Below, in pieces: positions 1 to 21,150 of a stretch of 21,150 bases of DNA; position 1 is the first letter of the stretch; every line of letters starts with the position of its first letter. The notes beneath the pieces are model-generated. The model had not been told where the DNA came from, made no database searches, and worked only from the letters and a program-made list of their open reading frames with translations. Both the position numbers and the translations under genes were made by a program. This DNA comes from a virus. The DNA is taken from the IMG/VR virus record IMGVR_UViG_3300044640_000629, positions 1 through 21,150 of that record; one strand, written 5' to 3'.

Positions 1-942
1 CCAAATCTAACCCCTGAACAAATTGCATCATTAAGTCCAGGTGACAGAAAAGCACGTGAAGCATTTTTTGCTGATAATAGCACAAATGCTGACACCGCAC
101 AAAATGAAATCGTTGTAACTGCTACTAGGTCAGCCGTTGAGTTTGATACTCAAGCAAAAGCATCAGCACAAGATGCGGCAAACTTTGAATCGTTTGAAGA
201 TTGGCGAGTTAGACTAACACTTGCACCCGATGCAGAATATATGTATCGTGCAAGTAATCCTGGTATCATGGCACCGTTGGCGGCGACGGACGGAGTCATC
301 TTCCCGTATACGCCATTGATTTCAGTCAACTACGCAGCCAAATATGATACATCTACTGTAGTTCACAGCAACTATCAAATATATCAATACACTAGTAGTT
401 CAGTAGATCAGATAACAATCTCTTGTGACTTTACTGCACAAGATACCAGTGAAGCGAACTACATATTAGCAACAATCCACTTCTTTAGATCAATGACTAA
501 GATGTTCTATGGTCAAGATCAGTATCCTAAACCAGGTACTCCCCCTCCACTTTGCTTCTTGTTTGGTTTAGGTGGATTTCAGTTTGACGCACATCCATTA
601 GTTATTACAGGATTCTCATATAACTTACCAAACGATGTAGACTATATCAGAACAACAACTACTATTGATAGTACTAGCGTAACTAAGAACGGAAATTTTG
701 AAACTGCCGGAAATGGCAGACTTCCAACTGGTGTATTACCAGGAGGAGTTGCCGCAGGCGCCACATTCGATAATGACGGCGGCGGATTTTCTCCTACATA
801 TGTACCAACAAAAATTCAGTTATCAATAACTGCATATCCAATTGTTTCACGAAATCAAATTTCTAATAAATTCAGCCTTACTGATTATGCTACTGGCAAA
901 TTATTACAAGGCAGTCAACGACAAGGCGGAGGCATCTGGTAA
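1..942 (+). CDS. Baseplate/tail-tube-end protein, gp48/gp54-like (5' end outside window)
   Basis: The frame is open from base 1, so the true start lies upstream; the ATG at 241 is internal because the sequence before it (e.g. DWRVRLTLAPDAEY) continues the same protein. 313 codons are visible. Distinct patches are a GVIFPYTPLI segment, a HSNYQIYQY segment, a helical stretch ending HFFRSMTKMFYG, a proline run (PKPGTPPPLCFLFG), then SYNLPNDVDYI and a closing beta segment PTKIQLSITAYPIVSRNQIS. The last parts resemble in order and character the C-terminal half of T4 gp48 (helix, FG-rich turn, final strand ending in an 'ITMREIITLNR'-type segment), the protein that caps the baseplate end of the tail tube. 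Position just upstream of a gp53-like gene also fits a gp48/gp54 role. Family assignment is inference from weak similarity; that it is a phage structural gene is much surer. Its stop overlaps the next start by one base. Confidence 0.6.
   Translation, partial: PNLTPEQIASLSPGDRKAREAFFADNSTNADTAQNEIVVTATRSAVEFDTQAKASAQDAANFESFEDWRVRLTLAPDAEYMYRASNPGIMAPLAATDGVIFPYTPLISVNYAAKYDTSTVVHSNYQIYQYTSSSVDQITISCDFTAQDTSEANYILATIHFFRSMTKMFYGQDQYPKPGTPPPLCFLFGLGGFQFDAHPLVITGFSYNLPNDVDYIRTTTTIDSTSVTKNGNFETAGNGRLPTGVLPGGVAAGATFDNDGGGFSPTYVPTKIQLSITAYPIVSRNQISNKFSLTDYATGKLLQGSQRQGGGIW
928..932 (+). promoter_or_regulatory. Shine-Dalgarno site for gp53-like gene
   Basis: GGAGG lies 9 bases before the ATG at 942, inside the last codons of the preceding gene. 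It supports the 942 start and translational coupling across the one-base TAATG overlap. Confidence 0.7.
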
Positions 943-1256
943 TGGCTAATCAATCACTATATCCACAAACAAGTCCTTATTTTAGCACCAACGTTGTTAA
1001 CAATAAGTATCTAGACGTAATGAACTATCGTCCGATCCCATTGGATCCTAGCGATGTATATATGGTTCTTACAAACGTGTATGAATTTAGGCCAGACTTA
1101 TTGGCATATGACTTATATGGCGATAGTAGATTATGGTGGGTATTTGCAGAACGTAATCCAAACAGATTAGGTGAAGACCCTTATTTTGATTTTAAAACAG
1201 GAGTGGGTATTTACGTGCCTAAATTGTCAACGTTGAAAACAGCATTAGGTATCTAA
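942..1256 (+). CDS. 53: Baseplate wedge protein gp53-like
   Basis: 104-residue protein. In T4, gp53 is a wedge component that helps join wedges around the hub. The diagnostic part is residues 47-95: YEFRPDLLAYDLYGD, then LWWVFAERNPN, then DPYFDFKTGVGIYVP. This is a LysM-like pattern (a GD pair, a bulky aromatic helix, an N, then G-x-x-I-x-V-P) found in gp53 and in other small tail proteins of the gpX/LysM type. T4 gp53 is about 196 residues, so this is a compact version lacking roughly half the length. The start follows a good GGAGG and overlaps the previous stop by one base; the next gene begins one base after the stop. A generic LysM-type tail protein is the main alternative. Position before the gp5-like gene matches the T4 order 53-5. 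Confidence 0.75.
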   Translation: MANQSLYPQTSPYFSTNVVNNKYLDVMNYRPIPLDPSDVYMVLTNVYEFRPDLLAYDLYGDSRLWWVFAERNPNRLGEDPYFDFKTGVGIYVPKLSTLKTALGI

Positions 1257-4210: not shown

Positions 4211-7200
4211 ATGGCACAAGACGTATTCAAACCAAAAGGTGCAACAAAAGCAAGTAAGCCAGACGCAGGTGGTGGTAATACTCGCAACGTACCGGTGTTT
4301 GGTATTGTAAAAGACAATGTAGATCCTACAAGATCAGGTCGTATTAAAGTTTACATTGCTGACCAGCCCGGCACACAAGACTCTACCAACTCAGATTCAT
4401 GGCAATCTGTAGGTTTTATGAGTAACTTTTTTGGTAAAGTTATTCCAGACGCCGGAGACAAAGGGTTCGGGGACTACAAAGCAAATCCAAGCTCATACGG
4501 TGAGTGGCATGCCCCACCTGATATTGGCACAACCGTAGTTTGCGTATTCATTAACGGCGACCCTAACTATGGTTTCTATATTGGATGTATACCTGAACCA
4601 GACGCATTGCAAATGGTTCCTGCTATTGGTTCTAGTGACAACATCATTGCTAATAGTGGTGAAGCAGAAAGTTATGGTGGAGCCGTAAGACTTCCAGTAA
4701 CAAACATTAATACAAACAATGCAGATTTGGCAAACAGCCCTGATTATGTTTCTGCTCCAAGACCAGTTCATAGTTACTCTGCTTCAATTATGAATCAGCA
4801 GGGTATTATTCGTGATCCTATTCGCGGCCCTATCAGTTCAAGTGCGCAACGTGAAGCGGCTTCACGTGTTGGTTGGGGCGTATCAACACCCGGTCGACCT
4901 ATCTATGAAGGTGGATTTGATGACGAATCAGTTGCATCTAATCTAGATGCAAGTAAATCTGAACAACTTAGAGTTGTAGCACGTAGAGGCGGCCACTCAT
5001 TGGTTATGGATGATGGTGACATTATTGGTCGTGATCAATTAATCAGAATTCGTACAGCATTGGGTCATCAAATCTTAATGAGTGATGACGGTCAAACACT
5101 AATGATTCTTCACTCAAATGGTCAATCATATATTGAATTAGGTAAAGAGGGTACAATTGATATGTACTCTACTAACTCAGTAAACATTAGAACACAGGGT
5201 GATTTAAACTTACACGCCGATAATAATATCAACATGCATGCCATGAAAGATTTTAGTATTCAAGCAAAGAATTTTCATGTTAATACTGAGGAAGAATTAA
5301 GATTACGTGCAACTACTGATATCAAAGCATATGCAGTAAGTAATTTTACAGTGAAAGCAGGTTCGGCAGTTGCATTAGCAAGTGGTGGCGATTCATCAAT
5401 GAATGCAGGTGGACTTGCATATGTCAATGGTTCTAAAGTTAATTTAAACAGTGGTTCGGCAAGTACACAACCTCAAGAAGTTGATATCATTCCAATTGTT
5501 GCACAGACTGATACGTTATATGATGAGAAGAAGGGCTTTATGGCTTCGCCGGGTAAGTTACTTACTATTGCATCACGTGCCCCTGCTCACGCACCGTGGG
5601 CAAACGCAGGTCAGGGTGTAGATGTTAAAACAGATTTGAATGCGTCAAGCCAATTACCGGCTGCGCCATCTGCGGCAGCGGCCGCAACAAATGCCGCGGC
5701 AGCACCAGTTGCTGGTACTCCTGTATCTCCTGCAACGGCAGCATCTGCACCAACAACGCCAGCAGTATCAGGTGCATTAGATAAAAACACTACTGGCGCA
5801 GTATTAGGAACAGTTGCAAAATCAGCCGCAGAAGGTGCCGCGGCCGCGGCCGTAACTCAAGGCGCCGCAATAGTTAAATCTGCAACCGGACAAGCCACTG
5901 CCGCTGTAGGAGCCTTTGCTCAAACTGCAACTCAATTGGCAAGTTCGGGAGTCATTAAACCAGGCGCTGACACACTTGTTAAAGGCTTAGTGCAGTCAGG
6001 TTCAAACATTGCATCATCAATGGCATCGGCTGTATTCACTGGTCAACCTGGCGCACAGAATTTAACTAGTCTAGTTAAGAATGTTTCTGCACAAGCAACA
6101 TCAGTAGTTAGTAACTTACAACAAGCGCAAACTGCGTTGACTGCTGTAGGCGCATTGACTGGCAAAGAAGCCCCTGCACAAGTAGCAGGTTTAGTTAATG
6201 CAGCCGCATCAGTGGGATTAGGTCCAACTGTAGCCGCAGTAAAAAGTATTGCAGGAACAGTGTCTAATGTGGCGGGCGCCGCTGGAGCAATAACAGGCGC
6301 ACTTTCAGGGGCAACTGGCGCCGCAGGTGCTCTTAATGCCGCGGCAGGAGTTGCAAACGCCGCAGGCGCAATCACAGGGGCGGCTGCAGGCGCACTTGCA
6401 GGCGCAACCGGAGCGTTAAAAGCAATTGGAGCAGGTTCAGCAGCCGCCAATCTTGCAACTACTGGCGTAGGTGGATTAGGTGGTATCGCTGGCGCATTGA
6501 CTGCAATGGGCAAAAGCGCACAAGTTGGATTGACAGGATTGTTAGATCAGGCAAAGGGAGTTGCAGGTTCTGCATTCGATGCGATTAAGAATTCATTTAA
6601 ATCACTTGAAGCCGGTGTCCCGCAAAATCTAACAGCGATTGCTAAAACAGCGGCTTCTGAGGCCGCTGAAGTGGCTGAACAAGTAGATCAAACTACTGGT
6701 TCATTATTAGATGCGGGCAAGGCATTAGCAGGAGTTGCAGGAGTTGCAGGAGTTGCAGGAGTTGCAGGAGTTGCAGGGGTTGCTAGTAGTGTCACTGGTG
6801 CAATAGGTTCAGTATCGGCATTGGCATCTACGGCTGCAGGTGTTGTTAATACTGCAGGTGGTGCATTAAATTCAATAACAGGTGCAGTTAATACTGCATC
6901 AAGTGCATTAGGATCAGTATCTAACATTACAGGTGCAGTAAACAATACTGTATCAGGCATTACAGGCGCAGTTACTTCTGCTACAAACGCAGTGGGTTCA
7001 ATTACAAACGCAGTCAAAACAGCAACAACCACAGTAGGTGGAATTACCGCTGTTACTGGAGCAGTAAATTCTGCGGCTGCTCAATCAAACAATGTTGCAA
7101 AATCAATTGCTGGTGCAGTAAACTCAGTAAATGCCGTAGCAGGCGCCGCATCAACTATTGCAGGCGTGGCTGGATTGAAGTCTTTGGCTTCCGCGGCTTC

Positions 7201-8332
7201 ACAAGTACAATCAGGCGCCGCAGCCGCAACAGCATCAACACTGGCATCTGGATTAAGTAATTTGCCAGGTGGTATGAAAACAGTTGGTGCAGTACTTAAT
7301 AATGCAGCCGGCGCAATCAACATTATTCCGGGCGCAGAAAAGATTTCTGGTCTAATCAAAGATGCACAGTCAGCGGCAATGAACGGGCTTGCATTACCAA
7401 AACTACCAGACGGAGTAAACGCTTTAGCAGGACTTGCCGCAGCCGGATTGCCAGCAGGAGCAGCCGCACAGTTAAAATCTGCAATCTCATCATTAAGTTC
7501 TGGCACAGGTGGCTCTATCAAATTGCCAACTATTAGTTTCAATACAACTGACAGAGGTTCAATTACTTCTCAAATTACTAGTGTATTAGGAGATCCTAAG
7601 ATTCCTATGCCAAATCTTATCGGTGAAATTTCTGATAAGGTCAAGAGTGAAGCAGAAAAAGCATTGAAATCGGGTGAAGAAATTCTCAAAGTTAATGCAG
7701 AAATTCGTGCGAACACTGAAAAGGTACTTGAGGCTAGAAAAGCATTCTATGAAGCAGAAGCATCATTGCCACAAGGAGATCCAGGTATTCAGGCTGCATT
7801 TGATAAATGGCTTTCTATTCAAAATAGTCCTGAACGTAAAGCACTATATGCTAAACTTGACGATTTAAAAGACGGGGTAATTCTAAATCTTGCAGGCGCA
7901 GAAGGTGCATCAGCAACTACATCTGCGGCCGCAGCCAGTGCCGGTGAAAACGGAATCACTGGATTAATTAAATCAGCATCAAGTATTGGAACAGATTTGT
8001 TATCTAAAACTACATTAATCGCCGGAGCAGGCTTAGCAGTTGGCGTTCCCGGCGCAATCAGAACTGCCGGCACTGCATACAATACATTTAAGAATGTTGA
8101 TCTTAAAACTGCGTTAGCAACTGAATTGACTGCTGGATTAAGCACATCAAGTTTAACTAATTTAGCGTCTACTGCAACAACTGCATTAAGTTCAGTGAAG
8201 GGTCAAGGTTCTACCGCAGTGAAAGCACTGATAGATTTTCCGTCAGTTTCGTCAAGTTCTCAGGCTATCAATAATTCTCTCTCAGGTATTATAGGTAGTA
8301 TACCGCCTGTTAATGGTACCGGTAGCGGATAA
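4211..8332 (+). CDS. 5: Baseplate central spike, gp5-like, with long Ala/Gly-rich extension
   Basis: 1373 residues. In T4, trimeric gp5 is the membrane-puncturing spike under the hub. Residues about 26-131 form an OB-fold-type domain (VFGIVKDNVDPTRSGRIKVY to YGFYIGCIPEPD), the signature shared by gp5 and VgrG. Residues about 140-280 are a connector with no sign of the T4-type lysozyme domain. Residues about 315-395 are a beta-helix needle with an octapeptide period, visible as LNLHADNN / INMHAMKD / FSIQAKNF / HVNTEEEL. Instead of ending there, the protein continues about 950 residues: Ala/Gly/Val/Thr-rich, weakly hydrophobic, with a six-fold AGV repeat at 840-857, a charged helical stretch at about 1140-1235, and another Ala-rich end. 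T4 gp5 is about 575 residues, so this is more than double. Symbol is by family; the extension's role is unknown. Confidence 0.8.
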   Translation: MAQDVFKPKGATKASKPDAGGGNTRNVPVFGIVKDNVDPTRSGRIKVYIADQPGTQDSTNSDSWQSVGFMSNFFGKVIPDAGDKGFGDYKANPSSYGEWHAPPDIGTTVVCVFINGDPNYGFYIGCIPEPDALQMVPAIGSSDNIIANSGEAESYGGAVRLPVTNINTNNADLANSPDYVSAPRPVHSYSASIMNQQGIIRDPIRGPISSSAQREAASRVGWGVSTPGRPIYEGGFDDESVASNLDASKSEQLRVVARRGGHSLVMDDGDIIGRDQLIRIRTALGHQILMSDDGQTLMILHSNGQSYIELGKEGTIDMYSTNSVNIRTQGDLNLHADNNINMHAMKDFSIQAKNFHVNTEEELRLRATTDIKAYAVSNFTVKAGSAVALASGGDSSMNAGGLAYVNGSKVNLNSGSASTQPQEVDIIPIVAQTDTLYDEKKGFMASPGKLLTIASRAPAHAPWANAGQGVDVKTDLNASSQLPAAPSAAAAATNAAAAPVAGTPVSPATAASAPTTPAVSGALDKNTTGAVLGTVAKSAAEGAAAAAVTQGAAIVKSATGQATAAVGAFAQTATQLASSGVIKPGADTLVKGLVQSGSNIASSMASAVFTGQPGAQNLTSLVKNVSAQATSVVSNLQQAQTALTAVGALTGKEAPAQVAGLVNAAASVGLGPTVAAVKSIAGTVSNVAGAAGAITGALSGATGAAGALNAAAGVANAAGAITGAAAGALAGATGALKAIGAGSAAANLATTGVGGLGGIAGALTAMGKSAQVGLTGLLDQAKGVAGSAFDAIKNSFKSLEAGVPQNLTAIAKTAASEAAEVAEQVDQTTGSLLDAGKALAGVAGVAGVAGVAGVAGVASSVTGAIGSVSALASTAAGVVNTAGGALNSITGAVNTASSALGSVSNITGAVNNTVSGITGAVTSATNAVGSITNAVKTATTTVGGITAVTGAVNSAAAQSNNVAKSIAGAVNSVNAVAGAASTIAGVAGLKSLASAASQVQSGAAAATASTLASGLSNLPGGMKTVGAVLNNAAGAINIIPGAEKISGLIKDAQSAAMNGLALPKLPDGVNALAGLAAAGLPAGAAAQLKSAISSLSSGTGGSIKLPTISFNTTDRGSITSQITSVLGDPKIPMPNLIGEISDKVKSEAEKALKSGEEILKVNAEIRANTEKVLEARKAFYEAEASLPQGDPGIQAAFDKWLSIQNSPERKALYAKLDDLKDGVILNLAGAEGASATTSAAAASAGENGITGLIKSASSIGTDLLSKTTLIAGAGLAVGVPGAIRTAGTAYNTFKNVDLKTALATELTAGLSTSSLTNLASTATTALSSVKGQGSTAVKALIDFPSVSSSSQAINNSLSGIIGSIPPVNGTGSG
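5640..7500 (+). repeat. Low-complexity Ala/Gly/Val/Thr-coding region within spike gene
   Basis: Degenerate GCN/GGN-rich coding sequence, locally much richer in G+C than the rest of the window. It encodes endless variants of AAGAITGA, SAVGSITNAV and similar pieces. Periodicity is irregular at DNA level except for the 9-base tandem at 6728-6781. Three GCGGCCGC octamers occur in Ala-coding parts of this gene (5678-5685, 5840-5847 and, beyond this block, 7925-7932). Confidence 0.7.
6728..6781 (+). repeat. 9-bp tandem repeat, six units (AGV codons)
   Basis: Five exact copies of GCAGGAGTT are followed by one copy with a single change (GCAGGGGTT). The unit is in frame and encodes Ala-Gly-Val at residues 840-857 of the spike protein, so changes in copy number would lengthen or shorten the protein without a frameshift. 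Confidence 0.95.
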
Positions 8333-8350: not shown

Positions 8351-8806
8351 ATGCCACAATATATCGGATTCAGCACTAAAGACTCTTGTAAGCCCAAAAC
8401 ATCCAACGATGTTAGTATTAGTGGCATCGACGGCGGCCCTGGTGGTATCCAAAAGGGTATTGTTTGGGGTAAGAAATATAGATTATTAGATTCTCAGTTA
8501 GTAATACAAGATTTCGTTAATGCATTGAATATTCCATTAGGAAGTAAAGTTGGTCAGCCGGGATATGGTACTAGACTTTGGAACTTTGTCTTTGAACCTA
8601 ATACCGCAGACGTACAATTTCAATTAGAATCTGAGATTCGTAGAGTTGCGTCAAGTGATCCTAGAATTAATTTAAACTATGTTAAAGCGTTCCCCCAAGA
8701 AAATGGCATATTAATTGAAGTACAGTTAGCAGTAGTGCCATTTAATCAAGCGGCAGTAATTAGTGTCTTCTTTAACCGCGGAAATAACACGGCTACCCTC
8801 ATATAA
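8351..8806 (+). CDS. 25: Baseplate wedge protein gp25-like
   Basis: 151 residues (T4 gp25 is 132). gp25 is the small wedge subunit, related to TssE of type VI secretion, that binds the gp6 dimer and helps start sheath assembly. The core is recognisable at residues 58-135: LNIPLGSKVGQPGYGTRLWN with the GYGT turn at 71-74, FEPNT at 81-85, a helix QLESEIRRVA, then DPRINLNYV at 103-111 (the usual 'epRv-l' position) and two final strands. About 35 extra residues at the N-terminus, Gly-rich (GIDGGPGG), precede the family core. The ATG follows an AAGGA site; the upstream in-frame codon run reaches the TAA of the spike gene, so no longer start is possible. Genes for gp25 and gp6 are adjacent here, unlike in T4 but common in other myoviruses. 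Confidence 0.85.
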   Translation: MPQYIGFSTKDSCKPKTSNDVSISGIDGGPGGIQKGIVWGKKYRLLDSQLVIQDFVNALNIPLGSKVGQPGYGTRLWNFVFEPNTADVQFQLESEIRRVASSDPRINLNYVKAFPQENGILIEVQLAVVPFNQAAVISVFFNRGNNTATLI

Positions 8807-8857: not shown

Positions 8858-11800
8858 ATGGCCACCAGTTCACGACAATCAGCACTATTTGGAACAAACG
8901 ATTGGAAGACTATCTACCAAACGTTCAGAGAAGCAGACTTTAGAAGTTATGACTATGAGACTTTGCGTAAAAGTTTCATCGATTACTTGCGTCTGTATTA
9001 CCCGGAAACATTCAATGATTATGTTGAATCTTCTGAATTTATTGCCCTACTGGACGTTATGGCGTTCATGGGACAAGGTCTTGCGTTCCGCAGTGACTTA
9101 AACGCACGTGAAAACTTTATTGATACCGCAGAGCGCCGTGACTCTGTTATCAAACTTGCCAATCTTGTAAGTTATACACCTAAAAGAAACATTGCTGGTC
9201 AGGGTTATATCAAAGTAACAAGCATTACTACTTCTCAAAATCTCACAGATATCAATGGTGTAAACTTAAGTAATATTCCTATTTTGTGGAATGACCCTGC
9301 TAACCCGAATTGGCTAGAGCAATACAATACTATTTTAAATGCGGCAATGATCGACTCACAAAGAATTGGTCGTCCTGGTAACATCTCAGAATTGTTGGGA
9401 GTTACTACAAGCGAATATGCATTACAGATTCCACCTAACTCGTTGCCAATTGTTCCATTCAAGTCAACTATTGATGGTCAGTCAATGAGTTTTGAACTTG
9501 TTAGCGCAACATCAATGGATGAAGATTATGTTTATGAAGTTCCACCTGCACCCTCAGGTAGATTTAATATTCTTTATCGCAATGACAAATTAGGATTTGG
9601 TAGTCCAAATACAGGATTCTTCTTTTACTTTAAACAAGGGTCATTGCAAAATTTTGACTTCAATTTACAACAACAAATTTCAAATCAAACTATTGACATT
9701 GGTACTATTCAGGGTGTCAATAACTCAGACACATGGTTGTATCAATTAAACAATGATAACACTAGAACACTTTGGAGAAAAGTAGATAACGTTTATGCTG
9801 ATGCATATTTGCAAACTGAATTTTCTAATAAGAAAATTTATTCAGTTAACTCACGTTTCAATGACCAAGTAACTTATGTGTTTGGTGACGGAGTATTCAG
9901 CGAAATTCCAGTTGGCAACTATCGTGCTTATGTTCGTGCAGGTAATGCATTAACTTATACAATTGAACCTAGCGAAATGAATGGTGTTTCTGTATCATTC
10001 TCATACGTAAGTCGTTTGGGAAGAGTAGAAACATTAACTATGGGTCTTGAACTAACCACAACTGTTTCTACTGCACAAGCACGTGAGACAATTGCTAACA
10101 TTAAACAACGTGCCCCTACTCGTTACTATACACAAAATCGTATGGTTAATGGCGAAGACTATAACAACTTCCCATATACATTGTATAGTTCAATTATTAA
10201 AAGTAAAGCAATTAATCGTTCAAGTGTTGGCGTATCAAAGAATTTAGATTTACTTGATCCAACAGGTAAATATTCAAGTACAAACAGTTTTGGTAGCGAC
10301 GGTGCATTATATCAAAATGATACTGATGGATTCTTGTCATTAACTATTAATAATACCAGTGACGTTATTGCATTCTTTACAGATACACTAGCCGCGGCAT
10401 TAGCAGATAACAATGCTACACAATATTATATTCAAAATTATACTAGATATTCTGCACCAACAAGTCCTTCTGTATTTTGGAGAACTAGTTCAGTAGATTC
10501 AGGAACAGAATCTGGTTATTTCTATACAGTAAGCGGCAGTTTAGAATCACCAATGTCAGTTGGAACATTCTCAACTAGTAATCTTAAGTATATCACAACT
10601 GGTGCAATTTGTAAATTTACTGCACCTTCAGGTTTTTACTTTGATAATAACAATAGACTAGTAGCAGGTATTGCCCCAGCCGGATATTATAATTATATTT
10701 GGACAACAGTATTAAATGTTATCGGTGACGGTAGTAATAATAGTGAAGGTAGTTTTGCAAACGGATCAGGCCCTATTAGATTAAATGGCTATGTTCCTAA
10801 TGGTGTTACTCTTTCACAGATTATTCCTGTGTTCGATAACTCATTGTCAACAACATTGATTCAAGAATGTATTATTAGAATGGAATTACAACAAGACTTT
10901 ACTCTTGTTTTTAATAACGCATTAACTATTAATCAGGAACGTTGGTCAATTCAAGCATTTACTAACCCTAATTATTTTGTAAAGTTCACTAGCGTTGGCA
11001 ACAATCGCTATACTATTACTTACAAGTCATTGACTTATTACTTTGGTTCAGTCGCAGATACTAGATTTACTTTTGCAAGAGATGAACTAGTATACGATCC
11101 ATTTTCAGGTAAGATCATTCAAGACTTTATTAACATGCTAGGTGTTAATCCACAATATAATTCAAACAATCCAATTGGTAGAGATACTAAAGTAAATATT
11201 TTAGGACAAACAGTTGAATCAGATGGTTATATTAATGACTTCCAAGTAGAAGTTGCGGCAACTGACGTTAATAATCGTGAATTGATTTTAAATCCAGACT
11301 TCTTTAGTGATATTACTGGTTACGTAACCGGTGGTGCCAATATTGGTGTATATGTTTTCTTTGAAACAGTAGAAGATGCAATTAGTTTAACACGTGAGTA
11401 TATTATTCCAACAACAGATGTTATATATCAATATGGAACTAAGACTCAGGTTGAAGTTGTAAAGTATGACTATCCACTAGGACAGTTATTCTATGCATTT
11501 ACTGAAAATAAATTTTATAAATCTGTACAAGATCAAACAGTTACTACACCATTTTATATTATGACTGAACAGCCGCAATATAATATGAAGCCTGGTCGCC
11601 AGGGATTAAGTTTCCAATATAGACACAATTCAAACAATACTACACGTATTGATCCTGTTACAACTAACATCATCGACTTGTATGTTGTTACTCAGGCTTA
11701 TTATACTGCTTATACAAATTGGATTACAGATACTACAAATACTATTCCAGAACCTGATAGACCAACTATCAGTGAACTATCAACTGAGTATAGTCAAGTA

Positions 11801-12220
11801 CAAAATTTTAAAATGTTAAGTGATGCAGTGATTGTAAATAGTGTTGTCTTTAAACCACTGTTTGGTCCTAAGGCCGATAGAGCATTACGTGCCACAATTA
11901 AAGTTATTAAAGCAAGCAACACCAACGCAAGTGATAGTGAAATCAGAAGTGCAGTCTTATCAGCAATGAACACTTATTTCAATGTTAACAACTGGAACTT
12001 CGGTGACACTTTCTATTTCTCAGAATTAAGTGCTTATCTACATGCTGAATGCGGTGAACTTATTAGTTCTGCGGTACTAGTACCCAACGATCCTACACAA
12101 CCCTTTGGAGATTTGTATGAAATAAAATGTATGCCTTACGAAATTTTCGTAAATGGCGCTACAGCAAATGATGTATTGGTCATCCCAGCACTCACGCCCG
12201 CTGAATTACAGGTAAGATAA
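8858..12220 (+). CDS. 6: Baseplate wedge protein gp6-like, enlarged
   Basis: 1120 residues. gp6 dimers form the inner ring that joins the six baseplate wedges; the family is related to phage P2 gpJ and TssF. Residues about 57-111 carry the strongest signature: ESSEFIALLDVMAFMGQ, then DLNARENFIDTAERRDS, then LVSYTPKRN. A middle landmark is RAPTRYYTQNRMVNGEDYNN (about 415-434), followed by GVSKNLDLLDPTGKYSSTN. The C-terminal domain (about 1025-1120) has NNWNFGDTFYFSELSAYLHA and ends in a PYEIFVNGA segment. T4 gp6 is about 660 residues, so roughly 460 residues are extra, mostly in the region 480-950, which is rich in Tyr/Asn/Thr beta-type sequence. Preceded by a late promoter motif and AGAGA. 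The next gene starts 8 bases after its TAA. No internal stop or frameshift is seen. Confidence 0.88.
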   Translation: MATSSRQSALFGTNDWKTIYQTFREADFRSYDYETLRKSFIDYLRLYYPETFNDYVESSEFIALLDVMAFMGQGLAFRSDLNARENFIDTAERRDSVIKLANLVSYTPKRNIAGQGYIKVTSITTSQNLTDINGVNLSNIPILWNDPANPNWLEQYNTILNAAMIDSQRIGRPGNISELLGVTTSEYALQIPPNSLPIVPFKSTIDGQSMSFELVSATSMDEDYVYEVPPAPSGRFNILYRNDKLGFGSPNTGFFFYFKQGSLQNFDFNLQQQISNQTIDIGTIQGVNNSDTWLYQLNNDNTRTLWRKVDNVYADAYLQTEFSNKKIYSVNSRFNDQVTYVFGDGVFSEIPVGNYRAYVRAGNALTYTIEPSEMNGVSVSFSYVSRLGRVETLTMGLELTTTVSTAQARETIANIKQRAPTRYYTQNRMVNGEDYNNFPYTLYSSIIKSKAINRSSVGVSKNLDLLDPTGKYSSTNSFGSDGALYQNDTDGFLSLTINNTSDVIAFFTDTLAAALADNNATQYYIQNYTRYSAPTSPSVFWRTSSVDSGTESGYFYTVSGSLESPMSVGTFSTSNLKYITTGAICKFTAPSGFYFDNNNRLVAGIAPAGYYNYIWTTVLNVIGDGSNNSEGSFANGSGPIRLNGYVPNGVTLSQIIPVFDNSLSTTLIQECIIRMELQQDFTLVFNNALTINQERWSIQAFTNPNYFVKFTSVGNNRYTITYKSLTYYFGSVADTRFTFARDELVYDPFSGKIIQDFINMLGVNPQYNSNNPIGRDTKVNILGQTVESDGYINDFQVEVAATDVNNRELILNPDFFSDITGYVTGGANIGVYVFFETVEDAISLTREYIIPTTDVIYQYGTKTQVEVVKYDYPLGQLFYAFTENKFYKSVQDQTVTTPFYIMTEQPQYNMKPGRQGLSFQYRHNSNNTTRIDPVTTNIIDLYVVTQAYYTAYTNWITDTTNTIPEPDRPTISELSTEYSQVQNFKMLSDAVIVNSVVFKPLFGPKADRALRATIKVIKASNTNASDSEIRSAVLSAMNTYFNVNNWNFGDTFYFSELSAYLHAECGELISSAVLVPNDPTQPFGDLYEIKCMPYEIFVNGATANDVLVIPALTPAELQVR

Positions 12221-12228
12221 GTATAGAT

Positions 12229-15200
12229 ATGGCTACAAACAGAGTAAGAACCCTTAATTTTCTCCCAGAGATTTTTCAAACTCCAACTAATGCTGAGTTC
12301 TTAGGAGCAACATTAGATCAGTTAGTTAATCCACCCAACACAACTAAAATTCAAGGTTATGTTGGCAGTAAGTTTGGTTATGGTGTAAATGCCAAAGACT
12401 ATTACGTTATAGAACCTACCAAAGTTCGTACTGACTACCAACTAGATCCGGGCGTTATCTTCACTAAAACTAATTCTCCTGTTGCTCAGGATTTTATTAC
12501 TTATCCGGGCATCGTTGATGCATTGAACCTTCAAGGCGCAGTAACAAATAACAATAGTAGATTGTTTACTAGCCAATTCTACTCATGGGATTCGTTCACT
12601 GACCTAGATAAAATCATTAACTTTAATGAATACTATTGGTTGCCTACTGGCGCACCCGCCGTAACAGTAGCGTCTGCTACAGTGTTTGCTACAAACGATT
12701 TCGTTGTTACAGACTTAACTAATGGTTATAGCATTAGAAGTTTGGGTTCAGAATCGGGAACAATCAATCCAACTCTTACATTATTAAGAGGTGGTACATA
12801 TCGCTTCTTAGTTAATCAGCCATCACAATTTTGGATTCAGGGTGAACCCGGAGTTACTGGATATAGTTTAACACAACCTAATTTGCCAGTACGTGACGTA
12901 TATGGCGTATCAAACAACGGTGCAACACAAGGTGTAGTAACATTCACTGTTCCATCTAAAAATGCACAAGATGAATATAATTTTCCAGGCAACAATGTTG
13001 TAGACGTTGTAAGCACAACTCCTTTCTCTGAAATCAATAGTCAACGTCTAGCCGATGTTGGTAACATTGATGGAATCACAGCCCTTGAAGGCTTGCGTGT
13101 CATGTTCTATGAAACTGGCGTGCCAAATGAAATTGGTTATGTACAAGCATTCTTTGGTGAAACAAACTATGATACAAACAATGACTTAATTGTTCCTCCC
13201 CTAACACTAACAATCGCTAGTACTACTACAAGTTATCTACAGTTAGCATCAGGTGATACTTCTGTATTAACTGAAGGACAAACTGTTACCTTTGATAACC
13301 CTGTATTTGGTAGCGTAGTTGGTGGAAACATTTATTATGTTAATAACATTTTAAGTTCTACTACATTTACAATTGCATCTGAACTAAACGGACCAGATTT
13401 GGTATTAACTGTTGGTTCTGGCGCAATGACTATGAATGCTAATCAGGGCTTGTATGAAGAAGGCTTCTACACAAATGTAGCCGAAAACTTTTATCGTATT
13501 GAATATGTAGGTGATCCTTCTGACCCAGTATTAAGATTGATTCCAGATGGTCTAATCCCAACAGAACAACGAATCACAGCCGCTTTTGGTACTCAGTGGG
13601 TTTCTAGAAACTTCTATCGTAACACTCTAGGTGTAATCGCATTGATTCCATATATCTCTGCTCCGCTTGATACATTGTATTATCAAGACGGCACAACTGC
13701 TAGTAAAGTTGGTGTCATTCGTATTATCGAAAGCAATTTAACTAACACTATTAATGTTGAAGAAGATATTTTAGGTAAAACTAATTACACTTCAACTAAT
13801 GGAATAGTTTTTACTAACGGATTAAAAGTAGAATTTGATGGTGATGTTATTCCCGCAAGTTACTTAAGTGGTCAATACTATGTTGAAGGTGTAGGTACTG
13901 CGATTGAATTAGTGCCAGTAGACTCATTGGTATCTCCGGAAGACTTTGCACTAAGTTCATTTAATCCATATGATATTTTACCATATGACATTGGTAACTA
14001 TGACAGCAACTTGTTTGTTCCAGTTGATCCTGACTATATTACAATTGCTAGAAATGCAATCAGTAGAAATGCATGGGCACGTAGTAACAGATGGTTCCAT
14101 ATCGATGTAATCAATAATACTGCGTCATACAATAACAATCCAAATATTGTTACTACCTATGCAACGGCTGCAAACAAAGCAAAACGACCAATCATTGAGT
14201 TCTATCCAAATCTTAAACTTTTTGATTCAGGTTCATATGGTAAGAGAGCAATCGACTTCATTGATACTAGAACAACTGATGCATTATCAACAGTTTCTGG
14301 TTCGGAAAACTTTTATCCAGATGTTGAAGTATACACAGCATACACCGCATCTATCACACCATTAACAACTACTACTGCTACAATTGCTGTTCCAGCAAGT
14401 GATATCAGCGGTGCATTTCAAGTCGGGATGTATATTGCTGACTCACTAAGTGTGTTACCAACTAATACTCAGATTACTGCAATTAGTGGAACTACCACGT
14501 TAACACTTAATGTCAATTGGCCAACCGCAACATCAATAGGAAGTACAACTAATGTTTCTATTATTGGTACAGATACAACCGTAAACAACTATGCGTTATT
14601 CCCAGAAGCACGTATTGTGTTTGCGGCTGATACTGATTTCAATGTACGAAACAAAATTTACGTAGCAAACTTTTCAACACTTACTCCTAGTTCAACACCC
14701 GTCATTACATTGACTGTTGCTGAAGAAGGTGAATGTTTACCTGATGATCAGGTAGCAGTACTGCGAGGTTATAATTATCAAGGTAAATCATTCTACTATA
14801 CTGGTGTAGAGTGGAATCAAGCACAACAGAAAGTTACTGTTAATCAAGCCCCGTTGTTTGATATCTATGATGATAATGGAATCAGTTTGGGTGACGTTGA
14901 TGTTTATAGAAGCACATCATTTGCCGGATCTACATTGTTTTCATATGGCATTGGTTCAGGTTTGGACGATTCTATTTTAGGTTTCCCCGTACGGTACTCA
15001 TCAATTGATAACGTCGGTGATATCAGTTTTGATGTTACTTTGAACAGCCAAACATTTGATTATGTTCAGGGTAGTAACTCAATTACTGCAAAAGTAAACA
15101 CAGGTTATGTTCACAATTATGTAACACGTGGTAACTATGTAAGAGAATTGGGATGGCAGACCGCTGTTGCACCAAGTGAGCAGTACCAAAACTTTAGTTT

Positions 15201-18200
15201 TGATTATGACATTGCTAACCCAGCAACAACATTTACATGTGATGTAGCCGCATTGCCTGATTTGGCTACAGATGAAAAAGGCTGGCCAAGAATTCAAGTA
15301 TACATTAATAACAACTATCTAAATCCTAGCGATTATGTGTATACTGTTGGTACAAACACAACTACTATTTCACTAGGTGTTACGCCGGTTGAATCAACCG
15401 TAATTCAAGTGCTAGTGTTAAGCGATCAAGTAAGCAGTACTGCTTACTATGGTATCCCTATCAACTTAAATAACAATCCCTTCAACCAAGACGTAACTAC
15501 CGCAAATGTCGGTGATATTCGTTCTCAGTATAGAGATATCTTTATTAATGCACCTAACACAACTGGTGAAATTTTTGGATCAAACAATTTTAGAGATTTA
15601 GGAAATCTTGTACCATATGGCACAAAGATTATTCAGAATAGTGCTTCACTTGCATTACCGGGTACATTCCTGCGCAAACAAGAACACAACTTATTTGATG
15701 CGTTATTATTCAACGGTCGTGAATATGTTAAGTATAAACAATTACTTGTTGACACTGTTAACAATACCGATTATGTTCAACGTTACACACCTGCTACAAT
15801 CTTAGATTTGGCATTAGATGCAATTACTGCATCCAAGAGTGAGTTACAGGCATTCTTTTGGTCAGACATGTTGCCATCAAAGGCTCCGTTTCGTAGCAAC
15901 ACATATACGTTTAACAATGATCTAGATAATGCAATCTATCCATTAACTAAAGTTTATAACTTTGATTCAGCAAACTATGAAGGCGTGTTAGTTTATTTGA
16001 ATAGAACAGTAGATGGTATTCCACTACAAAAGCAATTGCTTAAGGGACAAGAATACATTATTAGTTCTGATGCACCATCATTAACTGTAACTATCAATTT
16101 GCTTGCCGGCGACAAAATTACTATTAATGAATATAATCAAACATATGGTTCATATGTTCCAAATACACCTACTAAGTTAGGATTGTACCCTGCGTTTGAG
16201 CCACAAGTTGTACTCGACTCAGATTACATACAGCCTACATATTTTATTAAAGGTCACGACGGATCATACACTAAATTATATGGTGACTATAACCCAACAA
16301 CTGGCATTCTAGTTGACTTTAGAGACCAAGCATTGCTTGAGTTTGAAACTAGAATTTACAATAACTTGAAGTTAAGCACTCTTGTTCCAATTGAACGTTA
16401 TGAAATTGTTCCTGGATTCTTTAGAGATTCAAGTTATTCATATGCTGAATTCTTAGAGATTTATTCAAGCGGTTTCTTGAATTGGGTCGGTCAAAATCGA
16501 ATCGATTACAAGACTCAATATTTCAATCGTTTGGATGAATATACTTACAACTATACCAACAGCGGAAACAAGTTAACAAGAACTCCAATCGAGCAAGGTT
16601 ACTGGAGAGGTGTATACGAATTTTTCTATGACACATCTACCCCTAACGAAACACCTTGGGAAATGTTAGCATTTGTTAATCAGCCGGACTGGTGGACAAG
16701 TCGTTATGGCCCTGCCCCGTATACAAGCGATAACGGAATTCTATGGGGTGATTTAGAGTTAGGTTTAATTTGGAATAATGGTAACCCATATATTCAACCT
16801 GAACTAGCACGTCCTGGCTTATCAAACATTATTCCAGTAGACAGTAATGGAGACTTGGTATCACCGTTCGTGTCTATCGTAGGTAATTATAATCCAAACA
16901 CTTTTCAGAAAGATTGGAAAGTTGGTGATGATTCTCCGGCAGAATTTTCATATCGCAGAAGTTCTACATACCCGTTTGATTTAACAAGAATTTTTGCATT
17001 GACTCGCCCTGCTGAATTCTTTAACTTAGGTGTAGACTTAGACAACTACAAGTATAACGAAGAATTCAACCAGTATCTAGTTAATAACAGAAGTCATTTA
17101 GTTATCAGTGACATAGAAATCTATGGTAATGGTACTGCCAAAACTTCATATATCAACTGGATTGTTGACTATGAAAAGCAGTTGGGAATCACTGCAACAC
17201 AAAACATTACTACACTACTAGACAATTTAGATGTTCGTCTAGTATATCGTCTTGCGGGTTATAGTGATAAGACCCTTCTCAAGTTTTACGTTGAGAAAGG
17301 TACACCTAACTCACGCAATGCTTCATTGTTAATTCCAGATGAATCATATTCAGTATTATTGTATGACAACCAACCCTTCGACAGACTATCATATAGTTCT
17401 GTGGTCATTCAACAAGATCAGGGCACATGGTCAATCTATGGTAATGGGCAAACATTCGCATACTTCAATATTTTAAATCCAATACAAAATGGAAACTTCA
17501 ACAATATTCAAGTTGAAAATTTAAAAGTAAAAATTGCCAAAGATTATACAACAACAGAAACAGTTGTACCATATGGTACAAAATTCTATAGTGTACAAGA
17601 AGTAGCGCAGTTCTTAATGAGTTATGGTGCATGGCTTGTTGATAGGGGCATGGTTTTTGAAGAGATTGAAAACGGTGTAGGAATCACGTGGCAACTAATG
17701 GTACAAGAATTCTTGTACTGGACACAAACTGGTTGGGAAGATGGTAGTGTTGTTACATTGAATCCATCTGCAACTGTTATCAAAGTTGATAAAGAAAGCA
17801 CAATTGTACAGCCATTGACTTTACAGCAAACTAACTTTGTTCTAAATCAAAACTTGTATCCAATTTCAATTAATCAACTGTGTATCACACGTGATGATAC
17901 TGCATTTAGAGCGCATACCCTAAATCAGGGTGATACAATGTCATATGGTCAATTTGATTTAAGTAACTTTGAACATGGTATTGTGTTTGATAATACTACT
18001 TTGTTTAATGATATCATTTACAATCTTGTTACCGGTCTAAGACAAAATCGTGTCACGGTGCGTGGTACAAAGACTGCTGAATGGAACGGCACCGTAAATG
18101 CATATGGATTCATTCTAAATCAAGATAATGTAAAAGAGTGGGACACTACTGTAAAGTATACCAGAGGTGAAATTGTTCTATACAAGAACAAATACTGGAC

Positions 18201-21150
18201 TGCTCTTAGTATCATTGAACCTTCAACAGTGTTCAGTGAACGTAACTGGAAAGAAACTGATTATAACGATATTCAAAAAGGCTTGTTGCCAAACAGTTCA
18301 ACACGTTCTTATGAAAGCGCACTGTATTATAATGTAAACGAAACAAACCTTGAGCAAGACGCAGACTTGTTGTCATTCTCATTGATCGGATATCGCCCAC
18401 GTGATTATCTTGCACTTGCAGATTTGACTGATATTACTCAGGTTAATGTTTACAAGAACTTGATTAAAAACAAAGGTACTAGAAATGCAGTTGAAGCATT
18501 TAAGGGCGCAAACTTGCCACAAGGTGGCATCGATTATGATGTATATGAAAACTGGGCTATCAAGTCAGGTGAGTTCGGTGGCGTATTAAACGAAAACTTT
18601 GTTGAATTTAAGGTTAATGAAAACAACATGACTGGCAATCCATCTATTGTATCATTGACTGAAGGCATGCCTACACCAGGCTCAATGCAAGAAGTTGAAT
18701 TGTACAATCTATACAATTATGGACGCCCTGTAAATTCACCAAACATTCTAAACACTACAACTGACACAGCACCTAACAATTTATATCCAGATGCAGGTTA
18801 TGTAAACTTCAATGACGTTAAGTTATCTGCATATTTCTTTGCAGGGTTGCCAAGAGGAGTGGATGCGAATAATCAAATTGTTCCTATTCAAGACTTCTAC
18901 GTTAGAGATTATCTATGGATGGCAAACTTCAAAGATAGGTGGAATGTATTCTCATGGAAGCCAGTTGGACAAGTACTACAGGTTCGTAACAATCTAAACA
19001 ATACTGCAACTGTAACATTTAATAAGCCACATAATTTTACTAAGTTACAACCAATGGCAATCATTAACTTCTCACCTTCAGTAGATGGTTATTATATTGT
19101 AACTGATATCGTTAACTTAAACGAAGTTACTATCAACTTAACAATTACTAATGCGAATCAAACTACTATACAAGGTTATGGTATTGGTTTAGCATTCCAA
19201 TCACAACGTGTAACTTCACCATCTGAGATTGCCGATCTTGCTTTATTAGAAGCAGAATTTATTAAGAACAAAGTTTGGGTCGATGAAAATACAGATGGTG
19301 AGTGGGCAGTATATCGCAAGTCAATCAACTATCAGTATCAAAAAGAATTGACTAAGACTAGTGCAACTACATTTGGTTCAGCAGTTTCATATACTCCTGC
19401 AATGGGTTACTTAGTCAGTGACGCTGGACAGGGTAAAGTATATCGTTATGCATACAATGCACTAGCAAGTGAATATGAATTAGCAGAAACATTATTACCA
19501 GTAGTTGATGCAGGATCCTTTGTTATTGGCCAAATATATAAAATATTAACAGTTGGCACAACTAATTTTACTTTAATAGGAGCCTCATCAAATACTGTAG
19601 GAACTCAATTTACTGCGACTGGTATAGGTTCTGGAACTGGCACTGCAAATCACATTAATGCAACATCATTTGGTACAACTATTGTACACAGTGATGACTT
19701 GTATGTAATTTCAGAACCAACTAGTGCTACACCTAAAGTATACATTTATACTTTAAACAACACCATTCTATCTGATGATATCGTAACTTATCAGGCTGCA
19801 ATTGCGGCTCCTGGTGGTGTAACTGATTGGGGTTCTGCACTTGCTATCTCTGATGACAGTAACTGGATTTATATTTCAGATATCGACAACAATCAAGTAT
19901 ATGTCTATCGCAGAGATCAAATTGAAACAACTGCTGGATACTTTACTGTAGGACAAACCTACACAATCACTACAGTAGGTGATACTGACTGGGTTGCAGC
20001 CGGCGCAATTGAAGGCAAGGTAGGCATCACGTTTGTTGCATTAAATGTCGGCAGTGCAACAATAGTAGGAGGAATACCAGCCGGCACCGCAATGCAAGTT
20101 ACATATAAGCAATCAACTATCATTGACGGGTCAGTTCAAGGTTTGGTATCAGGAGATGATTTCAGTAAGTCATTGACAACTGATTACAACGGGGATACAA
20201 TTGTCATTGGTGCCCCGAATAAAGATTACAGTGCCTCAATTACTAATTGGGGTACAGCATATCTATACCAAAGAACAGTACAGAACATTGAAGCACAGTA
20301 TAACACAGTTGGAACTGATCCACAAGTATTCCAACTAGCATGGACTCCTGACACTGAAACGGTAGGGGCAACTTCAACAAACTCATCCGGGAATGTTATT
20401 ACTTGTGTAAGTACATCGGGTCTAGCAATCAATGATCCTATTATGTTTTCAGGAACTATATTACAAAATAGTAATATTTCTCCTAATACAGTGTATTATG
20501 TTAATACTATTCCAAATGGAACTACATTCACTATTAAAACTTTACGAAGTAGTTCAACTGTATTAGAATTAGGAACTGTGGCAACATCAACTATTGTTGC
20601 AGGTTCTTTTGTAGTAGGACAAACCTATGTGATTGCATCAGTTGGTTCTACTAATTTTACATTGATAGGAGCATCATCAAATACAGTTGGAACATTATTT
20701 ACTGCAACGGGTGTTGGTACAGGTACAGGTACAGCAAATGTAGCGGCAGTTGCAAACGTACAAGTCAATCCACTGTACGTTTTTGTTAACGGTAGTCTAG
20801 TACAAGACAATAACTATGGTGTTGTTGGATCATCATTGATTTACACAGGTACATTACGTGCAGGTGATGTTGTCACCGTAAGTGGCAATCAGTTCCAACT
20901 AGCACAGACATTTACATCTGACTTTACTAATAGAACTAATTTCACATATTCTTATGCAATGGATATCACTTCACCTGCATCTGAACTATTGATTGGATCT
21001 CCATACGAAATCGACAATGATAATGTCGAGGGTGCAGTATATCGTTATACTAATGGCGGCGCCAAATATGGTGTAGTAATTGGTGCTAATGAATGTAATG
21101 TTACTACTAACAGAACAGTATTGTTGAATGGATATTTTGTAGCATTAACA
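12229..21150 (+). CDS. Giant modular virion structural protein in gp7 position (3' end outside window)
   Basis: The frame is open from ATG 12229 to the window edge, 2974 codons with no stop (checked codon by codon). An in-frame TGA at 12202 and no intervening ATG fix the start; its ribosome site is weak. Opening sequence RTLNFLPEIFQTPTNAEFLG. Conserved-looking islands are PVDPDYITIARNAISRNAW (about 600-620), GHDGSYTKLYGDYN with RDQALLEFETRIYNN (about 1343-1380), GYWRGVYEFFYD to YGPAPYTSDNGILWGDLELG (about 1458-1515), and YKNLIKNKGTRNAVEAF (about 2075-2091). From about 2380 onward lie FG-GAP-like propeller blades interrupted by repeated insert modules. T4 gp7 (about 1032 residues) follows gp6, contains a propeller and a 'TKG' helix motif, so gp7-equivalence is plausible but unproven; another large wedge or fibre-network protein is possible. 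No membrane segment or signal peptide seen. Confidence 0.7.
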   Translation, partial: MATNRVRTLNFLPEIFQTPTNAEFLGATLDQLVNPPNTTKIQGYVGSKFGYGVNAKDYYVIEPTKVRTDYQLDPGVIFTKTNSPVAQDFITYPGIVDALNLQGAVTNNNSRLFTSQFYSWDSFTDLDKIINFNEYYWLPTGAPAVTVASATVFATNDFVVTDLTNGYSIRSLGSESGTINPTLTLLRGGTYRFLVNQPSQFWIQGEPGVTGYSLTQPNLPVRDVYGVSNNGATQGVVTFTVPSKNAQDEYNFPGNNVVDVVSTTPFSEINSQRLADVGNIDGITALEGLRVMFYETGVPNEIGYVQAFFGETNYDTNNDLIVPPLTLTIASTTTSYLQLASGDTSVLTEGQTVTFDNPVFGSVVGGNIYYVNNILSSTTFTIASELNGPDLVLTVGSGAMTMNANQGLYEEGFYTNVAENFYRIEYVGDPSDPVLRLIPDGLIPTEQRITAAFGTQWVSRNFYRNTLGVIALIPYISAPLDTLYYQDGTTASKVGVIRIIESNLTNTINVEEDILGKTNYTSTNGIVFTNGLKVEFDGDVIPASYLSGQYYVEGVGTAIELVPVDSLVSPEDFALSSFNPYDILPYDIGNYDSNLFVPVDPDYITIARNAISRNAWARSNRWFHIDVINNTASYNNNPNIVTTYATAANKAKRPIIEFYPNLKLFDSGSYGKRAIDFIDTRTTDALSTVSGSENFYPDVEVYTAYTASITPLTTTTATIAVPASDISGAFQVGMYIADSLSVLPTNTQITAISGTTTLTLNVNWPTATSIGSTTNVSIIGTDTTVNNYALFPEARIVFAADTDFNVRNKIYVANFSTLTPSSTPVITLTVAEEGECLPDDQVAVLRGYNYQGKSFYYTGVEWNQAQQKVTVNQAPLFDIYDDNGISLGDVDVYRSTSFAGSTLFSYGIGSGLDDSILGFPVRYSSIDNVGDISFDVTLNSQTFDYVQGSNSITAKVNTGYVHNYVTRGNYVRELGWQTAVAPSEQYQNFSFDYDIANPATTFTCDVAALPDLATDEKGWPRIQVYINNNYLNPSDYVYTVGTNTTTISLGVTPVESTVIQVLVLSDQVSSTAYYGIPINLNNNPFNQDVTTANVGDIRSQYRDIFINAPNTTGEIFGSNNFRDLGNLVPYGTKIIQNSASLALPGTFLRKQEHNLFDALLFNGREYVKYKQLLVDTVNNTDYVQRYTPATILDLALDAITASKSELQAFFWSDMLPSKAPFRSNTYTFNNDLDNAIYPLTKVYNFDSANYEGVLVYLNRTVDGIPLQKQLLKGQEYIISSDAPSLTVTINLLAGDKITINEYNQTYGSYVPNTPTKLGLYPAFEPQVVLDSDYIQPTYFIKGHDGSYTKLYGDYNPTTGILVDFRDQALLEFETRIYNNLKLSTLVPIERYEIVPGFFRDSSYSYAEFLEIYSSGFLNWVGQNRIDYKTQYFNRLDEYTYNYTNSGNKLTRTPIEQGYWRGVYEFFYDTSTPNETPWEMLAFVNQPDWWTSRYGPAPYTSDNGILWGDLELGLIWNNGNPYIQPELARPGLSNIIPVDSNGDLVSPFVSIVGNYNPNTFQKDWKVGDDSPAEFSYRRSSTYPFDLTRIFALTRPAEFFNLGVDLDNYKYNEEFNQYLVNNRSHLVISDIEIYGNGTAKTSYINWIVDYEKQLGITATQNITTLLDNLDVRLVYRLAGYSDKTLLKFYVEKGTPNSRNASLLIPDESYSVLLYDNQPFDRLSYSSVVIQQDQGTWSIYGNGQTFAYFNILNPIQNGNFNNIQVENLKVKIAKDYTTTETVVPYGTKFYSVQEVAQFLMSYGAWLVDRGMVFEEIENGVGITWQLMVQEFLYWTQTGWEDGSVVTLNPSATVIKVDKESTIVQPLTLQQTNFVLNQNLYPISINQLCITRDDTAFRAHTLNQGDTMSYGQFDLSNFEHGIVFDNTTLFNDIIYNLVTGLRQNRVTVRGTKTAEWNGTVNAYGFILNQDNVKEWDTTVKYTRGEIVLYKNKYWTALSIIEPSTVFSERNWKETDYNDIQKGLLPNSSTRSYESALYYNVNETNLEQDADLLSFSLIGYRPRDYLALADLTDITQVNVYKNLIKNKGTRNAVEAFKGANLPQGGIDYDVYENWAIKSGEFGGVLNENFVEFKVNENNMTGNPSIVSLTEGMPTPGSMQEVELYNLYNYGRPVNSPNILNTTTDTAPNNLYPDAGYVNFNDVKLSAYFFAGLPRGVDANNQIVPIQDFYVRDYLWMANFKDRWNVFSWKPVGQVLQVRNNLNNTATVTFNKPHNFTKLQPMAIINFSPSVDGYYIVTDIVNLNEVTINLTITNANQTTIQGYGIGLAFQSQRVTSPSEIADLALLEAEFIKNKVWVDENTDGEWAVYRKSINYQYQKELTKTSATTFGSAVSYTPAMGYLVSDAGQGKVYRYAYNALASEYELAETLLPVVDAGSFVIGQIYKILTVGTTNFTLIGASSNTVGTQFTATGIGSGTGTANHINATSFGTTIVHSDDLYVISEPTSATPKVYIYTLNNTILSDDIVTYQAAIAAPGGVTDWGSALAISDDSNWIYISDIDNNQVYVYRRDQIETTAGYFTVGQTYTITTVGDTDWVAAGAIEGKVGITFVALNVGSATIVGGIPAGTAMQVTYKQSTIIDGSVQGLVSGDDFSKSLTTDYNGDTIVIGAPNKDYSASITNWGTAYLYQRTVQNIEAQYNTVGTDPQVFQLAWTPDTETVGATSTNSSGNVITCVSTSGLAINDPIMFSGTILQNSNISPNTVYYVNTIPNGTTFTIKTLRSSSTVLELGTVATSTIVAGSFVVGQTYVIASVGSTNFTLIGASSNTVGTLFTATGVGTGTGTANVAAVANVQVNPLYVFVNGSLVQDNNYGVVGSSLIYTGTLRAGDVVTVSGNQFQLAQTFTSDFTNRTNFTYSYAMDITSPASELLIGSPYEIDNDNVEGAVYRYTNGGAKYGVVIGANECNVTTNRTVLLNGYFVALT
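13207..13440 (+). repeat. Insert module B, copy 1 (YYVN...TTFTI)
   Basis: Encodes residues about 327-404 of the giant protein: a Thr/Ser-rich strand start, a 'GQTVTF' strand, then GNIYYVNNILSSTTFTIAS and a terminal VLTVGSGAMT. The same plan recurs at 20371-20580. It looks like an immunoglobulin-like beta module placed between more conserved islands. Confidence 0.5.
14341..14580 (+). other. Putative beta insert module C
   Basis: Encodes residues about 705-784: TTTTATIAVPAS, VGMYIADS, then ITAISGTTTLTLNVNW. The Thr-rich strands and 'ITAISGTTTLTL' pattern resemble add-on beta domains of phage structural proteins. Only one copy is seen in the window. Confidence 0.35.
19510..19650 (+). repeat. 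Insert module A, copy 1
   Basis: 47 codons (AGSFVIGQIYKI..., ending GTGTAN) sitting between two propeller blades. Hand alignment with copy 3 gives 38 of 47 identical residues, but about half of the shared residues use different codons. Confidence 0.8.
19933..20100 (+). repeat. Insert module A, copy 2 (diverged)
   Basis: Starts AGYFTVGQTYTITTVGDTDW and keeps the 'F-x-V-G-Q-x-Y-x-I-x-x-V-G-x-T' frame of module A, but is strongly diverged after it and ends PAGTAMQV. It follows the second propeller blade. Confidence 0.6.
20371..20580 (+). repeat. Insert module B, copy 2 (YYVN...TTFTI)
   Basis: Residues about 2715-2784 of the giant protein. NTVYYVNTIPNGTTFTIKT matches the core of copy 1 at 13207-13440, preceded by an INDPIMFSG strand. 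It lies directly in front of module A copy 3, so two inserts are stacked between blades three and four. Confidence 0.5.
20599..20739 (+). repeat. Insert module A, copy 3
   Basis: 47 codons from AGSFVVGQTYVIASVG to GTGTGTAN. The middle stretch TNFTLIGASSNTVGT is identical to copy 1 in protein but not in codons. Confidence 0.8.

Follow-up and report, generated by a model that had tools for sequence, protein, structure and literature searches.

A gp5-like spike protein with a long Ala/Gly-rich extension and a predicted lysozyme-fold domain behind its needle in an IMG/VR virus record

The 21,150-nucleotide stretch of DNA analysed here in its entirety (the window; positions 1 to 21,150 of IMG/VR virus record IMGVR_UViG_3300044640_000629) carries a gp5-like spike gene whose product does not end at the beta-helix needle, as more than 900 residues lie beyond it. 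Behind the needle follow a predicted lysozyme-fold domain, a variable Ala/Gly-rich middle, a conserved segment, a charged helical hairpin and a C-terminal tail, and the gene is flanked by genes of the baseplate (Table 1).

Table 1. Features of the spike gene and of its neighbours in the window
Feature	Position	Strand	Basis or remark
gp5-like spike gene	4211..8332	+	1373 amino acids; PF04717, PHROG 13211
OB-fold domain, about residues 28-130	4292..4600	+	PF04717, PHROG 13211
Conserved linker, residues 131-255, site of the lysozyme in T4 gp5	4601..4975	+	without family match
Beta-helix needle, about residues 256-452	4976..5566	+	PHROG 13211 to residue 416, predicted strands to ~452; exact ends inferred
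End-of-needle motif SRAPAHAPWANAGQG, residues 456-470	5576..5620	+	position equivalent to R-x-P-T-x-E-P-Y of sister phages
Predicted lysozyme-fold domain, residues about 525-690, without a conserved catalytic Glu	5783..6280	+	AlphaFold2 model, structure match, profile match
Ala/Gly-rich variable middle, residues 691-1000, with AGV tandem	6281..7210	+	separate gene starts here in three homologues
Conserved segment, residues 1001-1137, NTTDR ... LGDPxIPxPN motif	7211..7621	+	family conservation
Charged helical hairpin, residues 1138-1236	7622..7918	+	predicted local distance difference test (pLDDT) >90 over most; only coiled-coil hairpin matches
C-terminal tail, residues 1237-1373	7919..8329	+	minority of homologues have the tail
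gp53-like baseplate wedge	942..1256	+	PHROG 7145
PHROG 11190 virion protein, gp27-like position, 982 amino acids	1258..4206	+	role inferred from gene order
gp25-like wedge protein, directly 3' of the spike gene	8351..8806	+	PF04965
gp6-like wedge protein	8858..12220	+	PHROG 10646

Architecture and conservation of the spike protein

The OB fold and the beta-helix needle recognised in the first-pass annotation were both recovered by profile searches: PF04717 matched the N-terminal OB domain above the cut-off (29.7 bits including neighbours in frame), PHROG 13211 covered residues 29-416 (E 7.5e-33), and tblastn of the spike against Paride gp5 gave 1e-40. The proposed lack of a lysozyme between OB fold and needle likewise held, as the Pfam search of residues 130-255 returned neither a lysozyme nor any other match, though the stretch is conserved across the spike family. 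In VgrG, a protein of type VI secretion, a gp27-like part is fused to the chain; no such part is present ahead of the OB fold here, the OB fold starting near residue 28 and a separate gene for a protein of 982 amino acids lying upstream.

The extension had been placed at 5190-8332, and it is real, but position 5190 is out of frame and falls within the needle, near residue 327; the extension proper starts near residue 453 (nucleotide about 5567). Its description as about 950 Ala/Gly-rich residues agrees with the composition of residues 421-1373 (A+G 35%, AGVST 62%, charged 10%, aromatic 1.7%). The AGV tandem is found at 6728-6783 as 6.2 copies of a 9-base unit with 97% matches, and the charged helical stretch corresponds to the hairpin predicted by AlphaFold2 (AF2) for residues 1138-1236, 32% of which are D/E/K/R. 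The first AF2 model was uninformative for residues about 833-1019, and a Foldseek search with the whole 974-residue extension was set aside, having returned coiled-coil matches only. Minus-strand open reading frames (ORFs) at 6043-8145 were taken as shadow ORFs of the spike coding sequence.

One scan of IMG/VR revealed 108 loci encoding relatives, 80 of which were kept, with 55 distinct complete proteins. Nearly all of these homologues measure 1037-1412 amino acids (one, split, has 687) and are alignable along most of the extension. Conservation is high at SRAPAHAPWANAxQGV (residues 455-470), across residues 550-660 and at NTxDR...LGxxxIPxPN...PxGDP (residues 1110-1190), and low in residues 691-1000 and beyond 1200. 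For L002, which is identical to the window, and L005, together the closest informative pair, the ratio of nonsynonymous to synonymous substitution rates was 0.05 in residues 1-420, 0.07 in 421-690, 0.32 in 691-1000, 0.20 in 1001-1200 and 0.28 beyond. The spike family is thus conserved under purifying selection, and since dozens of distinct homologues share the extension, it is not a product of chance. No match to residues 406-703 was obtained by tblastn against cultured phages, and no relative turned up among the bacterial genome contigs that were scanned.

Three homologues have the gene split. In two of them (L080 and L120) a protein of 465 or 556 amino acids, comprising the Ala/Gly part together with the conserved motifs of the C-terminus, is split off at a TAATG junction directly behind the lysozyme-like domain; L123 is the third. 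The spike genes of L121 and L168 are broken by overlapping frames, possibly through sequencing frameshifts and not by true splits.

The predicted lysozyme-fold domain and the post-needle slot

A Pro/Ala linker stands behind the end-of-needle motif and ahead of the lysozyme-like domain. Modelled by AF2 from residue 400 onwards, the protein was predicted with confidence over about residues 484-690, with pLDDT >90 for ~525-690, and the domain modelled alone (residues 480-696) again had a core with pLDDT >90. Foldseek of this single domain against the PDB gave no significant match. With a second aligner, only two of 28 PDB chains reached Z of at least 2, both of them lysozymes: the phi6 lysin 4dqj (Z 7.7, 123/138 residues, 4.3 A) and 3ab6 (Z 6.4, 102 residues, 3.2 A). 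When the domain was ranked against a viral structure library, a gp5/VgrG OB protein came 1st and the Atu_ph04 baseplate hub and tail lysozyme 4th.

The gp5 of Atu_ph04 contains a RESSGNY...GGYQF domain between its N-terminal part and its needle, which represents an unnamed lysozyme family with relatives in 40 phage records, mostly of Rhizobiales. A profile of this family, made from an alignment of ten sequences, matched the spike-family profile in hhalign with E 2.8e-6 over 108 columns and a score of 45, the best of 200 column shuffles scoring 19.5 and the reversed profile 13. A hidden Markov model (HMM) of the same family detected 57 of 92 window-type proteins at 1e-3 or better, including the protein identical to that of the window at 9e-7. 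Viral contigs scanned with the Atu_ph04 lysozyme domain yielded no relative, and a pattern search of the domain alignment was dropped, the alignment being too divergent.

In the Atu_ph04-type family the Glu of RESSG...YQ is kept and is taken as the catalytic residue. The profile alignment begins at the YQ motif, where the spike family has VGxFAQ, the YQ being lost; at the expected place of the Glu, upstream of the aligned part, no acid is conserved, and one occurs near it in 4 to 7 of 47 members. Because of the structure match together with the hhalign and HMM matches, residues ~525-690 are predicted to be a homologue of the lysozyme superfamily placed behind the needle, and because no acid is conserved at the Glu place, the domain has probably lost catalysis and become non-cutting. 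Hence, the loss of lysozyme asserted earlier stands for the stretch between OB fold and needle, but a lysozyme-fold domain, apparently without the catalytic Glu, is found after the needle.

In sister phages the needle is followed by a motif of the type R-x-P-T-x-E-P-Y, a loose pattern of which was found in 122 of 160 sequences and also fits PAHAPW of the window. The slot behind it is empty in Paride and many other contigs, where the chain ends at the motif, and is filled by M23 and GH24 in RaK2 relatives, by GH19 in L174 and by an intact GH24 in L180. The GH24 domains of three relatives of Paride-type spikes (L181, L191 and L195) cover only about positions 43-111 of a profile 125 positions long, and their catalytic N-terminal part seems to be lost too. 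Atu_ph04-type family members occupy the slot in L250 and L253, and their RESSG motif also looks changed. At the C-terminal end of the Atu_ph07 spike (L083:7899-10496) stands a peptidase domain of trypsin-like type (PF13365, E 6e-17), a relative of which lies in the slot of the Phosso spike, and both phages share a second domain ahead of it. In the Phosso spike (L086:4956-8090) a Gly/Ser linker of well over 150 residues leads from the needle to the C-terminal domains.

By analogy with evolved VgrG proteins, the post-needle position is a slot for cargo. The likeness to these proteins proposed in the first-pass annotation, a spike with C-terminal cargo, gains weight from the real enzymes that cultured sister phages have in this slot, which, as in type VI VgrG, would be swappable across uncultured giant phages. 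That lysozyme folds without a catalytic part recur points to a possible use of tail lysozymes as binding modules.

Wall crossing, proposed mechanism and alternatives

The baseplate context of the spike gene is confirmed by its gp53, gp25 and gp6 neighbours, which stand in the same order as in sister phages. Paride, Atu_ph07, RaK2, XaC1, Phosso, Munch, Hallingskeid, XbC2 and BF show much the same gene order, and in several of these phages an additional small gene for a lysozyme lies 3' of gp5. As had been noted, no PAAR gene directly follows the spike gene; gp25 and gp6 are there instead. The window further contains a giant open ORF at 12229-21150 (>2974 amino acids, PHROG 10938); a match to CBM5/12 near its residue 1970 stays below the threshold.

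PAAR genes and hydrolases were searched for in six records holding relatives, the window record being only 21 kb long. PAAR genes, adjoining a large gene, were present in three of the six, and none was seen within the 21 kb window record. GH24 was detected in three of the six inside tape-measure-like proteins of 1047-1384 amino acids, homologues of which are encoded in all six; the one in G001 carries a PF01832 glucosaminidase. Two of the records, G003 and G004, look like one phage having both PAAR and GH24, because their gp5 genes and a 182-residue stretch of the tape-measure-like protein are identical. We take these proteins for tape measures on account of their length, the character of their sequence and their resemblance to a cyanophage gene that is built alike. 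Across the clade (L132, L133, L134, L114 and L117) the wall-active domains on the tape-measure-like proteins are swappable, with GH24 and glucosaminidase among them; M15-like and SLT-like domains in some of the proteins were read by eye and Pfam did not confirm them. The first-pass annotation had asked how the wall is crossed. Since relatives encode PAAR elsewhere and wall hydrolases on tape-measure-like proteins, no paradox arises, and judging from gene content this question has an ordinary answer in the clade, in which wall cutting would sit on tape-measure-like proteins. As a separate observation, a ribonucleotide reductase-like ORF (L115:944-2032) opens with an intein-like sequence ending in VHNC.

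Our best explanation, which as a whole we judge about evenly poised between right and wrong, is that the gene encodes the central spike of an uncultured giant phage with a contractile tail, and that a covalently attached arm follows the needle of this spike in an evolved-VgrG-like build. In this reading the lysozyme domain of the arm has turned non-catalytic and is probably a wall-binding module. Three arms would hang off the spike trimer past a separately encoded PAAR tip and would pass the outer membrane with the spike upon contraction. The pseudo-lysozyme domains would then most likely bind peptidoglycan without cutting and help to seat the tube, and the wall would be opened by a hydrolase carried on the tape-measure-like protein; the Ala/Gly stretch would be a spacer that can flex, and the hairpin would aid packing or docking. 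More tentatively, at somewhat less than an even chance, several lineages may have put a lysozyme behind the needle and then inactivated it, leaving a non-cutting wall anchor, with catalysis moved to the tape-measure protein. Several points weigh against a wall-binding pseudo-lysozyme arm. The Ala/Gly stretch could not be modelled (pLDDT mostly <50); a Z of 7.7 is by itself middling, and the lysozyme case needs the profile match beside it; the alignment of the catalytic site is one of helix-end position, as the profile match begins downstream of the site; and the window has a Glu (E541) near the catalytic place, 43 of 47 members being without an acid in that column.

The most likely alternative, which we consider unlikely but still worth serious attention, is that the arm serves structure or assembly, by packing along the needle or in the baseplate hub or by controlling how the tip or tape measure docks, and has no role at the cell wall. 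The Ala-rich helices, the helical hairpin and the tape-measure PHROG matches of some members are consistent with it, whereas these matches are weak, few and, like the Pfam matches of single members, taken as compositional; real tape-measure-like proteins are encoded elsewhere, and sister spikes manage without any arm. A tape-measure-like extension, considered earlier, is disfavoured, such PHROG matches being weak, in a few members only and none for the window. We regard it as improbable that the post-needle domain is still an active wall hydrolase with a moved or unusual catalytic acid: the lysozyme fold, the homology to a family that keeps its Glu, the Glu at residue 541 of the window and the enzymes in the same slot of RaK2-like phages argue for it, but acids near the catalytic place occur in no more than 4 to 7 of 47 members, the YQ motif is lost, and relatives encode other hydrolases.

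The first-pass annotation had suggested that the extension could be a payload or membrane-active part, with a glycine-zipper bundle as an alternative; that the Ala/Gly helices form a membrane-active or glycine-zipper payload now appears very improbable. The Ala/Gly/Val-rich composition and the long GGAIGGAL-type runs of one homologue (L101) speak for it. The best 19-residue hydropathy value, however, was 1.97, at the AGV tandem, with a family median of 1.47; no segment of this length reaches 2.0 in any of the 55 members and only 10 members reach 1.6, which places all 55 below typical transmembrane helices. The Ala/Gly middle has no transmembrane helices, and the window shows no enrichment of GxxxG. 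Low hydropathy together with the lack of GxxxG enrichment speaks against membrane insertion. Drift of a low-complexity sequence, or an artefact of assembly, is scarcely credible as the source of the extension: the middle does vary in length and composition, but many independent contigs, purifying selection and the conserved motifs flanking the middle contradict this for residues 421-690 and 1001-1200, and drift is possible for parts of 691-1000. The idea of a swappable slot in which tail lysozymes can become binding modules is testable in cultured relatives such as Paride, which has no arm, and RaK2, which has an enzyme arm.

Comparison with known spikes

The spike shares the OB fold and beta-helix with T4 gp5, a protein of 575 amino acids capped by gp5.4 (PMC4576200). 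In T4 the order is OB, lysozyme, needle, and the lysozyme between OB and needle is absent here. The gp5 of cyanophage S-SSM5 has a helical insert ahead of the needle and is without such an arm. The closest cultured OB fold and needle are those of Paride and PA5oct gp5 (30% identity over residues 31-462), which, unlike the spike described here, stop at the motif after 477 amino acids and have no arm. The lysozyme domain of Atu_ph04 and phiM9 gp5 belongs to a homologous family, but it precedes the needle and keeps its Glu.

Evolved VgrG proteins such as Vibrio VgrG3 resemble the spike in having a wall-directed domain fused behind the needle. The lysozyme-like or pesticin-like C-terminal domains of VgrG3 (PMC9927483) are active toxins, whereas the domain here is apparently without the catalytic Glu. 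Gene order, the OB and needle family and extra post-needle domains are shared with the gp5 of RaK2-type jumbo phages (RaK2, CBB, Munch and BF), which carry M23 and GH24, in contrast to the different, apparently dead lysozyme family and the Ala/Gly tail of this spike. As CBB_240 was reported earlier to combine a gp5 domain at its N-terminus with a lysozyme at its C-terminus, and to be a confirmed structural protein (PMC5259590), enzymes behind the needle were already known; the new part is the degenerate lysozyme with an Ala/Gly arm in that position.

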